A stretch of 64,000 nt of DNA from Clostridia bacterium (GTDB taxonomy: Bacteria; Bacillota; Clostridia; Lachnospirales; Cellulosilyticaceae): the NCBI GenBank assembly GCA_029239755.1, contig JARBUI010000017.1:1-64000 (forward strand). The letters run 5' to 3'. Numbering within the stretch: position 1 is the stretch's first letter; the number at the start of each line of letters is the position of its first letter. Under the pieces are notes generated by a model. The model was given only the letters and a program-made list of their open reading frames with translations, was not told the origin of the DNA and ran no database searches. A program made the translations under genes and the position numbers. Below are positions 17,951 to 28,926 of this stretch, piece after piece.

Positions 17951-18844
17951 TTATGCGTTATATGACTGATTTGCGTAATCCCAGTTAACTACATTAAACC
18001 AGTCATCTATATAGTTATTACGGCGATTTTGATGTTTAAGGTAATAAGCGTGCTCCCATAAGTCTATGGCAATTATAGGTACGAGTCCAAGGGGAACGGG
18101 GGTATTTTGATTCGGAGTGGAAACTATTTGAAGCTTACCTGAGTCATCTTTTAAGAGCCAGGTCCATCCAGAACCAAAAGTATTTAGAGCAGTTTGTTTA
18201 AATTCATTTCTGAAGTTCTCAAAACTCCCAAAGTCTCTGTCAATAGCAGCTCTTAGGCTGCTATTAGGCGCAGTCCCTCTATTAGGCGTCATTACTTTCC
18301 AAAAGAAAGAATGATTATAATGTCCGCCTCCATTATTTCTAACAGCTTCTCTAATATCAGAAGGCAGTCTATCAATATTATTCAGTAAGGTTTCAAGTGA
18401 GACATTATAAAGTTGAGGGTACTTTGATAATGCCTCATTAAGCTTATCTACATAAGTTTGGTGATGTCCCGTATGGTGTACTTTCATAGTAGCTTCATCA
18501 ATATATGGTTCTAATGCATTATAGGCATATCCAAGAGGCGGAAGCCTAAATGGGCCGGTAGAAGCTGCGAAGTTATTAGAAGACATATCGTTAGTAGAAG
18601 GCATACCATTAGAAGACATGTTGTTAGTAGAAGGCATACCATTAGAAGACATGTTATTAGTAGAAGGCATACCATTAGAAGACATGTTGTTAGTAGAAGG
18701 CATGCCATTAGCGAACATATTGTTATTAGAAGACATACTGTCATCAGAATTCATATTATTTGAAGGCGTTGAAGCTCTGAAATTATTTTTATTATTAAAA
18801 CTAGTAGCTAGTGTTATAAAAATTAAAGGTAATAGATCTTTCAT
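17951..18844 (-). CDS. Secreted Fe/Mn superoxide dismutase with repeat-rich N-terminus
   Basis: A 297-residue protein that should convert superoxide to oxygen and peroxide. The enzyme core covers roughly residues 100-297. Metal ligands lie in HHTGHHQTYVDKLNEAL, GGGHYNHSFFW and DLWEHAYYL. In front of it are a short hydrophobic leader (LLPLIFITLA) and about 80 low-complexity residues rich in Asn, Ser and Met with an 11-residue repeat (MPSTNNMSSNG). The leader suggests export or attachment. SodA of C. difficile is a spore-coat protein, so a spore-surface role is a plausible inference. GAAAGGA precedes the start at modest spacing. Confidence 0.87.
   Translation of the reverse strand: MKDLLPLIFITLATSFNNKNNFRASTPSNNMNSDDSMSSNNNMFANGMPSTNNMSSNGMPSTNNMSSNGMPSTNNMSSNGMPSTNDMSSNNFAASTGPFRLPPLGYAYNALEPYIDEATMKVHHTGHHQTYVDKLNEALSKYPQLYNVSLETLLNNIDRLPSDIREAVRNNGGGHYNHSFFWKVMTPNRGTAPNSSLRAAIDRDFGSFENFRNEFKQTALNTFGSGWTWLLKDDSGKLQIVSTPNQNTPVPLGLVPIIAIDLWEHAYYLKHQNRRNNYIDDWFNVVNWDYANQSYNA
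18591..18722. repeat. 33-bp tandem repeat inside the superoxide dismutase gene
   Basis: Four consecutive 33-bp units start at 18591, 18624, 18657 and 18690. The first three are almost identical and the fourth is diverged. A more degenerate unit follows at about 18723. Each encodes eleven residues (MPSTNNMSSNG, permuted). The near-identity of units at DNA level suggests recent expansion and possible length variation between strains. Confidence 0.95.
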
Positions 18845-23552: not shown

Positions 23553-23598
23553 AAAAGGAACTATTTAGCCCTAGATAGGGGTTAAATAGTTCCTTTTA
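23553..23598 (+). terminator. Terminator after the thioesterase gene
   Basis: A 19-bp stem (AAAAGGAACTATTTAGCCC with its complement, one G-U) and a loop of six bases, ending in TTTTATATT. It separates the plus-strand unit from the minus-strand ParA unit and may act on both. Confidence 0.88.
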
Positions 23599-23602
23599 TA
23601 TT

Positions 23603-23776
23603 CTATAATAAGTAATCAGGCAATTTTTGTGTAATACCTGAAGTTTCAGAAGCTTCGGTGGAAGAGGCGTCTTGTTCAGAAGTTTTTGGCGGGGGTATCA
23701 GGGCTACTTTAGCAGGTGTATTTTGAGTTTCTACAGCTTTATTTATACGGTTAATGCTTTTGCTGCTGATTGACAC
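23603..23776 (-). CDS. Small 57-residue protein overlapping the end of the ParA gene
   Basis: This short gene is missing from the ORF track. It starts with GTG at 23776 and reads MSISSKSINRINKAVETQ, ending in QKLPDYLL. AAAGGAGG lies nine bases before the GTG, inside the coding sequence of the ParA gene, which it overlaps by 26 bases in another frame. The product is hydrophilic, Ser/Thr/Pro-rich in its middle and has no membrane segment. Strong site, overlap and position imply that it is made together with the ParA ATPase. It could be a partner or activator, but no family is recognised. Confidence 0.7.
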   Translation of the reverse strand: MSISSKSINRINKAVETQNTPAKVALIPPPKTSEQDASSTEASETSGITQKLPDYLL

Positions 23777-24557
23777 GGCTTACAACCTCCTTTGTAAGAC
23801 TTAAATATTCTATAGCACTTCGGCTTGACTTTTTGTAGTCCATTACAGGTCTGCCATTTTCCTGTGACCATTCTATGCTGCTGTCAACTTTTATGTACGT
23901 TTCAAAGACATAGGTATGTTTAAGTTCTTCAAGAGCTGTAATAGTTTGCTTAAGGTAATTTTTTCGTGTATCAGCCTTAGTAATACATACGCCCAGCATT
24001 TGAAGGTCTGGAGTAACATATTTAATATCGCTTAAAAAGTCAAATAAGTTAGCCAGGCCAAAAAGTCCCCATGGACTTGCTTCAACAGGAGTAATCATAT
24101 AGTGGGAGGCACATAGAATATTCATAACCCATCCCCCTAAAGTTGGAGGGGAATCAATCAAAATATAATCGTACTCATTTCTTTCTACAATCTTTTTTAA
24201 ACCATTTTTAAGAATATATTCTCTTTGCCATTTGGTAAAGAGTTCGTATTCGATAGAGCTCATCAAAGTAGAAGAGAGAATCATATCTATATTAGGATAT
24301 CTGGTAGATAAAATATAATCAGAGAGATCTTTTTGATATTTAATAGCTGCATATAAGTTTTTTTCACTTTTAGCCGTTTCAAGGACAAATTCTTCCTCAA
24401 AATAGGCAAGAGAGAGGTTAAGCTGCATGTCTCCATCAATAAGAAGCACTTTGTAGCCAAGAGATGACAAAGAATATCCTATATTGGCACAAGTTGTAGA
24501 TTTACCACTCCCACCTTTATTATTTACAAAGCATAAAATGTGTGTTTGAGATGCCAT
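23751..24557 (-). CDS. ParA/MinD-family ATPase (orphan)
   Basis: A 268-residue ATPase of the ParA family. The deviant Walker A NNKGGSGKSTTCANIGYSL is at the N-terminus, followed by VLLIDGDMQ and DYILIDSPPTLGG. It has no N-terminal DNA-binding domain. No ParB with recognisable sequence is nearby and it is not next to the usual chromosomal parAB. ParA-like proteins position DNA, chemoreceptors or other cargo. The small protein overlapping its 3' end is a candidate partner. AGAAGGAT lies before ATG 24557, and a promoter is visible 110 bases upstream. Confidence 0.9.
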   Translation of the reverse strand: MASQTHILCFVNNKGGSGKSTTCANIGYSLSSLGYKVLLIDGDMQLNLSLAYFEEEFVLETAKSEKNLYAAIKYQKDLSDYILSTRYPNIDMILSSTLMSSIEYELFTKWQREYILKNGLKKIVERNEYDYILIDSPPTLGGWVMNILCASHYMITPVEASPWGLFGLANLFDFLSDIKYVTPDLQMLGVCITKADTRKNYLKQTITALEELKHTYVFETYIKVDSSIEWSQENGRPVMDYKKSSRSAIEYLSLTKEVVSRVNQQQKH

Positions 24558-24667
24558 TTTTATATCCTTCTTTCTAAGCTATATTAAAAATGAGTGAAGT
24601 TCTACAGAAGTGTAAGATTTCAGCGGTTAATGTTTTTTTATAAGCTATTATCTCATTGCATAAATAT

Positions 24668-24696
24668 AGTATAGCATTAATTTTGGGCGTCATCAA
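24668..24696 (-). promoter_or_regulatory. Promoter of the ParA gene
   Basis: Read on the minus strand, TTGATG (24691-24696) and TATACT (24668-24673) are separated by 17 bases. It lies just after the 344-residue gene and makes ParA and the small protein a separate transcription unit. Confidence 0.6.
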
Positions 24697-24700
24697 ATAA

Positions 24701-25735
24701 TTAGTTAAGCGAGCCGTCAAGAAGAGCGGAGTCCTTATACTTATGGAGGCCCATGCAATAGATAAGCTTGTCAGTAAAAAGATCATAACAGGTGATATAA
24801 TTTCGATAGACATTGTTTGCATGATCATAGCTAATAAGAAAGAGCTGAGTAGTTCTTAAAAAAGCATCTACTAGAAGCGCATTTTGACTGGGTAAGGCTA
24901 GTTCACCTGTATGAGAAAGAGAAAGCTTATGATCATAGAGTGCATAGTGCATACTAACATCATCTAAAGATAAAGCAATAGTCTGGGTCTCATTACTAAA
25001 GACGTACTGGGGGTCAAAAGGCAGTGGTATATGAAATGATTCACCTCTTTCGTAAGAGAGTACTTGTAGGGTACCTTTACTGATGAAGACAGCATTTCCA
25101 GATGTATCAATCGTGTAATGTTCCTCCTGAACAGCACTGGGGTGAGTAGCTGTTTTAATAGCTTTTTTAACTGAAAGATTAGCAGCATCTATCTGATAAA
25201 TGAAAGCATTATAGGCATTTACCTCTCCACCGAGTAGGATAAGGCGATCGTTAACCCGCCTAATATGTGAAACATACATATCACCCAAATTATCTGTATC
25301 ATTGTACTGAAGGTTACTTACCTTAAGCGTTTTCTTATCAAGTATATAGATTTTTTCTAGTCCTCCTGTAAAAGAAACAATAATGATGGAATCATCTTCA
25401 TAGTAATCATGAAAATAATGGAGAGGCAGTAAGCCATGGTTTTTTCTGAAACGGTTAATCCGAGATAAAATACGCCTATAGTGAGCTGATGCTAAAAAAC
25501 CTTCGGTATAACTTTTAAAGGCAGCCTTTAGGGGTCTAACAGTATCTTTAGATACCTCAAACCCTTTTATAGAGTTCATTGTGACATCACTATAAAAGAT
25601 ATTCATGCTAAAATCAGGAGAGCTGCTTGGCGTACTAAGTAAAATATCATAGATTAAAGGGCGCCTTAGGACAAAGTAGCATAAGACGCCTATAACTATG
25701 ATGCAAAGGACTATCACTTGATTTCGTTTCTTCAT
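24701..25735 (-). CDS. Membrane-anchored extracytoplasmic protein of unknown function
   Basis: A 344-residue protein with an N-terminal transmembrane helix (VIVLCIIVIGVLCYFVL). A long outside part is rich in short beta-strand-like segments (DDSIIIVSFTGGLEKIYILDKKTLKV, NAVFISKGTLQVLSYERG). The spacing of these segments is reminiscent of a beta-propeller, but no family is recognised. Its ATG is one base after the stop of the papain-like gene, so the two are co-translated and probably work together at the cell surface. Confidence 0.6.
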   Translation of the reverse strand: MKKRNQVIVLCIIVIGVLCYFVLRRPLIYDILLSTPSSSPDFSMNIFYSDVTMNSIKGFEVSKDTVRPLKAAFKSYTEGFLASAHYRRILSRINRFRKNHGLLPLHYFHDYYEDDSIIIVSFTGGLEKIYILDKKTLKVSNLQYNDTDNLGDMYVSHIRRVNDRLILLGGEVNAYNAFIYQIDAANLSVKKAIKTATHPSAVQEEHYTIDTSGNAVFISKGTLQVLSYERGESFHIPLPFDPQYVFSNETQTIALSLDDVSMHYALYDHKLSLSHTGELALPSQNALLVDAFLRTTQLFLISYDHANNVYRNYITCYDLFTDKLIYCMGLHKYKDSALLDGSLN

Positions 25736-25736
25736 C

Positions 25737-26561
25737 TTACCAATCCTTATCTGGATTAAATCCGAAAATTTGAAGTGTTTCTAAAAAGGGACTGCTTGCA
25801 ATATTTGCGGGAGAAACTAGAAGTCCGTCTGTGGCATCAAGATCAAAACCAAAAGATTTAAAGGCTTGCCATACAAGAAGCGAGCAATGAGTAGCATTAG
25901 GGGCTTGTCCTTGGTTTTTATCTGCAAAGATATCATAGGGAATACCTTGTAAGTTAGAATAAGCATAGGATGCAATTTCATCGAGCTTAGCTTGATTTAC
26001 ATCTTTAAGCCGCATCATTTTAAAGGTTGGGTAGTAACGCCATTTATTTACATCTTGTTCCATACTGGAAGTGCCAGGACTTAGAGCTTCTAATGTTTTA
26101 CCCCTTTTGGCATCAATAACTATTCCCGCATGTCCATGACGCCAACTCATAGTATAGGTAGATTTAGTCAAAAATATATAACCATTATGATAAGGAGCGA
26201 GTTCAAAACCTGGTATTGCATTGGTATCTTTATCATTAATAACATCTTCTTTTGTAAAAAAGTTTATATCCGCAGAACCTATTATTTGAGCTGATAAATA
26301 ATTTTTTTGAAAGCCGAGTACTTTTTGTTTAAAATCCGGCATAGTTTTAAGTTCCTCAACAATTGGTCTGGCAATACCAGTTTGTTCAAAGATAAGTTTG
26401 TAGTCAGATTCTTCTAGAATAGACTTAGATAGAATAGGATCAAGATTGACTTGTGAATGAAGAGGCTTATAATAGCCTTGTTTTTCTACAATACCTGAAT
26501 AAATAAAATAAATAAGTGTGAATAGGATACAAAATAAGGGCAGAAAATGTTTAAGTCTCAA
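25737..26561 (-). CDS. YiiX-like permuted NlpC/papain-fold hydrolase
   Basis: A 274-residue protein with an N-terminal membrane or signal segment. The likely active-site His is in WRHGHAGIVIDA and the likely Cys in NATHCSLLVWQAFKSFG, in that order. His before Cys is the hallmark of circularly permuted papain-like enzymes (YaeF/YiiX group). These act as amidases or peptidases, some on peptidoglycan or lipid-linked peptides. It is the first gene of the minus-strand pair with the anchored protein, so an extracytoplasmic target is likely. The substrate cannot be told. Confidence 0.68.
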   Translation of the reverse strand: MRLKHFLPLFCILFTLIYFIYSGIVEKQGYYKPLHSQVNLDPILSKSILEESDYKLIFEQTGIARPIVEELKTMPDFKQKVLGFQKNYLSAQIIGSADINFFTKEDVINDKDTNAIPGFELAPYHNGYIFLTKSTYTMSWRHGHAGIVIDAKRGKTLEALSPGTSSMEQDVNKWRYYPTFKMMRLKDVNQAKLDEIASYAYSNLQGIPYDIFADKNQGQAPNATHCSLLVWQAFKSFGFDLDATDGLLVSPANIASSPFLETLQIFGFNPDKDW

Positions 26562-26826
26562 GGTTATTCACCTCCTATATTATTTTTTGAACAATGCAAC
26601 TCTATTTTAACATAAAAAAATGTAAAAAAAATAAATCCTAGTAAATTTTATGAATGACCATAAAGTAATGCTTAAATTAACCTCATTATTAAAAAAAGTT
26701 ATAATAAGTATAAAAACAGTAAATAGAAATGTTTGAAAATAAAGACTATTATCTATTGAAAGCGTATTTTCAATCCTATAGAATGAAGTAGAAAGAAAAG
26801 CATTTCATTCATTGGGGGGAGTTTTT

Positions 26827-28926
26827 ATGAATTTGATAGTACTTGCACCAGTCGCTGCAACACTTGCATTACTTTTTGCAGCATATTTCAGTTTTTGTGT
26901 TATAAAAGAAAGTGAAGGTTCTGATAAGATGCAGCAAATTGCTAAAAATATCAGAACAGGAGCAAATGCCTATCTGGTGCGCCAATACAAAGGGGTAGGA
27001 TTCTTTTTTTTAGGGATGTTTATTGTACTTTTTTTATTAAGCAGCTTTGGCTATGTTTCAGTATTTGTACCTTTTGCGTTTATCACCGGAGGATTTTTTT
27101 CAGGGTTCAGCGGCTTTCTAGGAATGAAAATAGCAACATCTTCTAATGCAAGAACAACACACGCCTGTTCAAAAAGTCTCAATGCAGGCCTTAGAGTTGC
27201 TTTTTCAAGTGGAGCGGTGATGGGCCTTATCGTGGTTGGATTTGGTCTTTTGGATCTTAGTATATGGTATTATATATTAGACTGGTATTATAGGGGATTA
27301 CCTATTGCAGAGCGAATTGTTTATATTACTTCTTCAATGCTTACTTTTGGCATGGGTGCTTCATCTATGGCATTATTTGCAAGAGTTGGAGGAGGTATTT
27401 TTACAAAAGCAGCAGATGTTGGAGCTGACCTTGTAGGTAAGGTTGAAGTCGGCATACCAGAAGATGATCCAAGAAATCCAGCTGTTATTGCAGATAATGT
27501 GGGAGACAATGTAGGAGATGTGGCTGGGTTAGGAGCTGATTTATATGAGTCTTATGTAGGATCAATCGTATCTTCTTGTGCTCTTGCAGTTGCCGCAGGT
27601 CTTGGTATGCAGGGAGTTATTATTCCTCTTCTTGTAGCAAGTATCGGTGTATTGGCATCTGTTATAGGAACATTTTTTGTTAAAACAGGAGAAGAAGCTT
27701 CTCAAAAAGTACTGCTTGGTGCTTTAAGGCGCGGCATTTATTGCTCAGCGATTATCATTGCAATTGTAAGTTATTTTTTAGTAGTACAAGTTCTGGGAAG
27801 TGAGTATATAGGTATTTATTTTTCGATACTATGCGGTCTTATAGCTGGATTATTTATTGGATTCTTTGCAGAGTATTTTACCAGCAGCACCTATAAACCG
27901 ACTAAACAGCTAGCAGATTCTGCTGTAACAGGTTCGGCAACAGTTATTATAAGTGGTATGTCAGTAGGGATGTTATCAACATCATTACCTGTTATTGTAG
28001 TAGGGATATCTGTTATTATAAGCTATATTATATCTGGGGGAATGAATAATTTTAATCTCGGATTATATGGCATTGCAATATCAGCTGTAGGAATGTTATC
28101 TACTTTAGGTATTACGCTTGCAACAGATGCCTATGGTCCTGTAGCAGATAATGCGGGTGGTATTGCAGAGATGGCGGGGCTTGACGCGGCAGTGAGGAAA
28201 CGAACAGATGCTCTAGATTCACTAGGCAACACTACAGCAGCTACAGGGAAAGGATTTGCTATAGGTTCTGCTGCTTTAACAGCACTCGCCTTTATAGCGG
28301 CTTATAAAGATTCTATAGAGCTTCTTGTACAAAAGAATCACATTGATTTCACATTTGATCTTTCAATATTAAACCCACAAGTACTCATAGGCTTATTTGT
28401 TGGAGGGATGGCAACCTTTGTATTTGCTGCGTTTACTATGAATTCAGTAGGCAAGGCAGCTGGTATGATTGTAGTTGAAGTAAGGCGCCAGTTTAAAGAA
28501 ATAATAGGGCTTATGGAAGGGAAGGCTGAGCCGGATTATGCATCTTGTGTAGATATTTGTACAAAAGCAGCACAAAAAGAGCTTATTAAAATAGCACTTC
28601 TAGGTGTTGCAACACCACTTGTTGTAGGGCTCATTCTTGGCCCTAATGGGGTAGCCGGCCTACTTGCAGGGGCTACTACAACAGGTTTTATTCTTGCCGT
28701 GATGATGGCCAATGCAGGGGGAGCATGGGATAATGCAAAAAAATATATTGAAGAAGGCAATCTTGGCGGAAAAGGATCTGATGCTCATAAAGCAGCAGTA
28801 GTCGGGGATACCGTGGGAGACCCATTTAAAGATACAGCGGGGCCAGCTATTAATATACTTATTAAACTTATGGCTATGGTATCTATAGTATTTGGTTTAT
28901 TTGTACTTACATGGTCTATTTTATAA
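26827..28926 (+). CDS. hppA: Membrane-bound pyrophosphatase (K+-dependent type)
   Basis: A 699-residue integral membrane enzyme that couples PPi hydrolysis to H+ or Na+ pumping. The signature DVGADLVGKVEVGIPEDDPRNPA and the second acidic motif DNAGGIAEM are intact, as is VVGDTVGDPFKDTAGP near the end. The position that is Lys in K+-independent enzymes is Ala here (GNTTAATGKGFA), which points to the K+-dependent class. Whether it pumps H+ or Na+ cannot be read reliably. The track starts at TTG 26812. GGGGGGAG before ATG 26827 favours the latter. A terminator follows. Confidence 0.95.
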   Translation: MNLIVLAPVAATLALLFAAYFSFCVIKESEGSDKMQQIAKNIRTGANAYLVRQYKGVGFFFLGMFIVLFLLSSFGYVSVFVPFAFITGGFFSGFSGFLGMKIATSSNARTTHACSKSLNAGLRVAFSSGAVMGLIVVGFGLLDLSIWYYILDWYYRGLPIAERIVYITSSMLTFGMGASSMALFARVGGGIFTKAADVGADLVGKVEVGIPEDDPRNPAVIADNVGDNVGDVAGLGADLYESYVGSIVSSCALAVAAGLGMQGVIIPLLVASIGVLASVIGTFFVKTGEEASQKVLLGALRRGIYCSAIIIAIVSYFLVVQVLGSEYIGIYFSILCGLIAGLFIGFFAEYFTSSTYKPTKQLADSAVTGSATVIISGMSVGMLSTSLPVIVVGISVIISYIISGGMNNFNLGLYGIAISAVGMLSTLGITLATDAYGPVADNAGGIAEMAGLDAAVRKRTDALDSLGNTTAATGKGFAIGSAALTALAFIAAYKDSIELLVQKNHIDFTFDLSILNPQVLIGLFVGGMATFVFAAFTMNSVGKAAGMIVVEVRRQFKEIIGLMEGKAEPDYASCVDICTKAAQKELIKIALLGVATPLVVGLILGPNGVAGLLAGATTTGFILAVMMANAGGAWDNAKKYIEEGNLGGKGSDAHKAAVVGDTVGDPFKDTAGPAINILIKLMAMVSIVFGLFVLTWSIL

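Follow-up and report, generated by a model that had tools for sequence, protein, structure and literature searches.

The small gene that overlaps the 3' end of an apparently orphan parA, in a 64,000-nucleotide stretch of DNA from a Clostridia bacterium (GenBank assembly GCA_029239755.1, contig JARBUI010000017.1; the whole stretch is termed the window), encodes a real and conserved 57-aa partner of the ParA ATPase. Together, the two proteins quite probably constitute a self-standing positioning pair of the ParA/MinD type, in which the adaptor would be a ParB reduced to two peptides and a linker. A first-pass annotation had proposed a ParA-type positioning ATPase with a small partner, and this is still the best reading of the locus. 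No description of this ParA/partner pair was found in the open-licence literature.

Two independent gene pairs at one locus

The four open reading frames at the locus all lie on the minus strand, at 26561-25737, 25735-24701, 24557-23751 and 23776-23603, and the arrangement given by the first-pass annotation was confirmed, including the single base that separates the TAA of the first gene from the ATG of the second. The first gene (25737..26561) encodes a permuted, membrane-anchored, papain-like (C92-like) protein of 274 aa. Its match to Pfam Peptidase_C92 (PF05708; E 0.0036, 17.8 bits) falls under the cut-off of 27, and residues H142, H144 and C226 are invariant across 17 orthologues; this invariance makes it probable that the protein works as a permuted papain-like enzyme, with a likely remote relationship to C92. 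The second gene (24701..25735) encodes a membrane-anchored protein of 344 aa, possibly a beta-propeller, for which Pfam, PDB profile and NCBIfam searches gave weak propeller-repeat matches and nothing beyond, in keeping with the previous view of its fold as unrecognised. At 26812-28926, a large membrane pyrophosphatase-like gene lies between the papain-like and RNase J genes; in G001 and G002 it does not occupy that place.

The third gene (23751..24557, minus strand) encodes the ParA-type ATPase, a protein of 268 aa with the deviant Walker A motif KGGSGKST, and the fourth (23603..23776, minus strand) encodes the 57-aa protein from a GTG start. The two overlap by 26 nt, and the Shine-Dalgarno sequence of the small gene, AAAGGAGG, is read directly within the parA coding sequence at 23786..23793 (minus strand), exactly 9 nt 5' of the GTG at 23776; both the overlap and the spacing agree with the first-pass annotation. 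Between the 344-aa gene and parA, there is a promoter-like TTGATG-17-TATACT with an extended -10 (24668..24696, minus strand), so the promoter claimed for ParA is present as a consensus match only, of a type no more frequent than in shuffled sequence. A strong terminator (23553..23597, strand unassigned), composed of a 20-bp hairpin and a T-run (z = -4.7), separates the 57-aa gene from a convergent thioesterase gene. With the promoter-like site before them and the terminator after, parA and the 57-aa gene form an apparent transcription unit of their own, and the two membrane-anchored proteins are encoded outside it. No ParB was found near the locus, as had been noted before, and none was found in the source genome's assembly, which is 73% complete.

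Comparison across genomes demonstrates that the four genes are two independent units. The papain-like and 344-aa genes are adjacent in many family members, and the pair is kept in at least eight family genomes where it is not beside this ParA; in G001, G004, G005 and G006, for example, it adjoins queA-thioesterase and other conserved genes without ParA. Conversely, G000, G002 and G003 are the only genomes in which ParA and its small gene adjoin the papain-like/344-aa pair; in G005 they occupy a separate contig (C16) near sugar-transporter genes and a racemase-like gene, and in other families they occur without the surface genes. The first-pass annotation had tentatively linked the ParA pair to a cell-surface hydrolase and had asked whether the four genes stay together elsewhere; their homologues are not neighbours, and the link is not sustained. 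A single localisation system made up of all four, with ParA responsible for positioning the surface hydrolase, is hardly credible, although the genes are adjacent and co-directional in the three genomes named above. Both surface proteins begin with an N-terminal membrane anchor and would therefore act outside the cytoplasm, and synteny contradicts the cluster as a single system.

The ATPase and its conserved small partner

The ATPase matches Pfam AAA_31 (E 2.1e-47) and has the features of the ParA/Soj branch of the ParA/MinD superfamily, namely the KGGxGK(S/T) motif, the signature lysine and the AAA_31 fold; its PDB profile matches are Soj/ParA proteins. Among 392 genomes of the order, 22 orthologues were found at E<1e-100 with 57-89% identity, in all of which K14, G15, G16, G18 and K19 are invariant. 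A sharp gap separates these orthologues from Soj-like proteins (~1e-37), and the ATPase is at most 34% identical to the Soj-like proteins that these genomes also encode. Across GTDB species, 461 relatives were detected, and the 80 that score best come mostly from Lachnospiraceae (Blautia, Mediterraneibacter, Robinsoniella and Diplocloster), with some in Oscillospiraceae. Carriage as mobile-element cargo is rejected, there being no relative on viral contigs and no close copy on plasmids or phages, where matches reach only ~32-43% identity. Other than the partner, no widely recurring neighbour gene was seen among the 22 ParA loci, whose neighbours were only partly assigned to families. In two family members (G009:C79:1973-7765 and G014:C306), at least four consecutive ParA/MinD-like ATPase matches occur within a few kb.

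A partner gene overlaps the 3' end of parA in 18 of the 22 order-level orthologues, and a strong Shine-Dalgarno sequence precedes it in most of them. Among the best 80 of the 461 GTDB loci, the partner is present in 49 and absent in 30, with one locus cut by a contig end. The overlap is 10-26 nt and the partners are ~50-215 aa in length, which places the 57-aa window protein among the shortest of its family. In 60 distinct proteins, the N-terminus follows the consensus M(S/A/P)(V/I)GK.SI.RA, the middle is variable in length and sequence and rich in K, A, E and T, and the final residues are (E/D)LPx(Y/H)L(L/M), represented by LPDYLL in the window protein. Partners were selected by the C-terminal motif alone, with the N-terminal motif playing no part, and S[ILMV]xR is nonetheless found within the first 25 residues of all 60. 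The ~1 Mb of loci compared holds ~1690 different ORFs with a length of 120 aa or more; the C-terminal motif was counted 22 times among them, and every case is a partner. Codon comparison outside the parA overlap gave dN/dS values of 0.07-0.35; conservation of the small frame, the check proposed by the first-pass annotation, is thus evident in its codons as well as in its ends. The window protein has no match in Pfam, and AlphaFold models it as a single N-terminal helix (residues 5-18), followed by a middle without structure and, at the C-terminus, a short turn. The first 16 residues of the partners carry a mean net charge of +2.5.

A clade of Mediterraneibacter, Dorea and Tyzzerella possesses the ParA without an adjacent partner, a distribution for which a single change on the ParA tree suffices (SH-aLRT 86), and in these bacteria ParA may act alone or with a partner encoded in trans. 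A search of the partner-less genomes with one short partner as query gave no match, and that query gave no significant match to the known partners of G268 (E 0.19) and G178 (E 0.63) either. A conserved AraC-type regulator, MHEELLRELSVITEEEQ..., is often found 3' of the partner-less ParA in Mediterraneibacter-type loci (L113, L114, L121, L124, L137, L138 and others). Phylogeny confounds the ParA columns that distinguish the partner-bearing from the partner-less clades, such as A169G and S235N, and these columns carry no weight here. FtsZ ends in IPDFFKK in partner-less G354 and G370 (L227, L228) versus IPxFL in partner-bearing relatives, possibly by chance.

ParB relatives among the partners and the competing explanations

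Several partners retain a recognisable piece of ParB. A ParB_N domain lies above the Pfam cut-off in the middle of L146, L170, L191 and L214 (E 6e-9 to 1e-13; best 1.2e-13), with a weaker match in L126-L128, and a profile built here scores these seven at >147 bits versus <3 bits for all other partners. The PDB profile matches of the ParB_N-bearing partners are to Noc (2.9e-12) and Spo0J (3.8e-9). Likewise, Foldseek matched a low-confidence model of such a partner best to Noc and ParB, and also to PadC (6ryk); the AlphaFold model of L191 has a mean pLDDT of 53, which is low confidence. The N-terminal (V/I)GKGSI of the partners is similar to (L/F/I)G(K/R)G(L/F/I), the motif by which ParB binds ParA (PMC12704722). 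Finally, two outgroup ParAs (37-43% identity) are followed by a full-length ParB without the LPxYLL end.

The ParB_N/CTPase fold is thus seen in four scattered lineages and was not detected in the window protein and most partners. Since ParB_N similarity is undetectable in the middle of the window protein, its proposed descent from ParB rests on the shared ends and the gene position. On the ParA tree, which has long outgroup branches, the seven ParB_N-bearing partners occupy four places and take four changes; repeated loss from a ParB-like ancestor would be the simplest reading, but the tree does not distinguish it from repeated gain, and the direction in which the partners evolved is put forward here as an inference.

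These relatives invite the explanation that the pair is a ParABS-type DNA partition system, of the chromosome or of an integrated element, whose small protein would itself contact the DNA. Membership of the ParA family, the ParB_N domain of some partners and the K/A-rich, histone H1-like middles of others (HC2, 1.6e-6 on L115) all lend it some support, yet no HTH was found in any partner read, the window protein is without a K/A-rich middle, and the ATPase, as noted above, is not found on plasmids, phages or viral contigs. A search with the consensus parS found no such site near the locus, only one chance-level match with three mismatches at 18389, ~5 kb away (0.23 such matches expected by chance). 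In addition, a canonical ParB is separately present in 16 of the 17 carrier genomes searched. On this evidence, direct DNA partition is unlikely. By another account, ParA acts alone, for instance in regulation, and translational coupling maintains a small protein whose role is unrelated. The Mediterraneibacter/Dorea clade, with its partner-less ParA and frequent downstream AraC-type gene, speaks for this account, but the partner ends are conserved in each partner-bearing lineage, some partners bear ParB_N, and the outgroup ParAs are paired with ParB, all of which makes a solitary ParA quite improbable.

A predicted adaptor and its counterparts

According to the preferred reading, a positioning ATPase with a reduced ParB as its adaptor, ParA-ATP dimers would bind the nucleoid, and the basic N-terminal helix of the partner is predicted, by analogy with McdB and PadC, to attach to the ParA dimer and accelerate its hydrolysis of ATP. 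The disordered linker may bridge a gap while the C-terminal LPxYLL peptide grips a cargo, which would follow, or be spread by, the ParA gradient. The binding of ParA, the stimulation of its ATPase and the binding of cargo are all roles that we infer for the partner. The partner would descend from, or have been assembled on, a ParB stripped of its HTH and dimerisation domains; most lineages, that of the window among them, would probably have lost the CTPase fold as well, and because of these losses the partner is not expected to carry parS DNA. With a canonical ParB in all but one of the carriers searched, the pair appears to be an addition to ParABS (Soj/Spo0J), and replacement of the chromosomal system is rejected. 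The one carrier of a different kind, G354, is 98% complete and gave no ParB_N match whatsoever.

The pair has counterparts among known systems. In its likeness to McdAB, which positions carboxysomes, a ParA ATPase adjoins a small, mostly disordered partner whose N-terminus forms a basic helix; in McdB, which is disordered, such a helix of 20 residues is necessary and sufficient for McdA binding (PMC12204374). The loci compared here appear to differ in having no recurring neighbours such as microcompartment genes, among neighbours only partly identified by family. To our knowledge, McdB has neither a ParB_N domain nor a C-terminal LPxYLL. PadC of Myxococcus xanthus, an adaptor that brings ParA to bactofilins, a structure other than DNA (PMC5703909), likewise combines a ParB-like domain with a disordered region, and binding of ParA by the adaptor is predicted here too. 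However, PadC is encoded in a bactofilin operon and binds ParA through its ParBC domain, whereas here parA is the sole constant neighbour and most partners have no ParB domain. Soj/Spo0J and Noc are related through ParA homology, the partner N-terminus (resembling the ParA-binding motif) and the ParB_N of some partners, which is closest to Noc and Spo0J; unlike them, the partners are without an HTH, a dimerisation domain or parS, and they coexist with a canonical ParB.

A further likeness, spotted post hoc in a short motif, concerns the FtsZ C-terminal peptide, which is read by FtsA, SepF, EzrA, MinC and others (PMC9939409). Both ends consist of a hydrophobic residue, P, any residue, an aromatic and L after a disordered linker: the window partner ends in LPDYLL and FtsZ of the same genome in IPQFLRRSR, and the FtsZ cores of carrier genomes (IPQFLRR, IPDFLK and MPTFLQ) recall the partner pattern LPx(Y/H/F)L(L/M). 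The partner differs in ending at L/M with a free carboxylate, with no basic residues after it. It is tempting, if speculative and on balance unlikely, to suggest that LPxYLL mimics the FtsZ peptide and is bound by one of the divisome proteins that read it, for example FtsA or SepF. If true, the pair would govern where or when the division machinery acts with respect to the nucleoid, and gut Clostridia would have a third division-site system in addition to Min and Noc. In G637, a carrier genome from another family, two full-length FtsZ matches occur in tandem (C23:107429-109606).

Many ParA/MinD ATPases pass for orphans, since the diversity of their partners hides them from recognition (PMC10241942). 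For the ParA of hundreds of gut Clostridia species, a partner can now be named from sequence. The family would include intermediates leading from a full ParB, through ParB_N without an HTH, to bare peptides, and it may represent a case of a DNA-partition partner turning into a cargo adaptor. The two short peptides thereby defined are suited to ParA-binding and cargo tests in common commensals such as Blautia.
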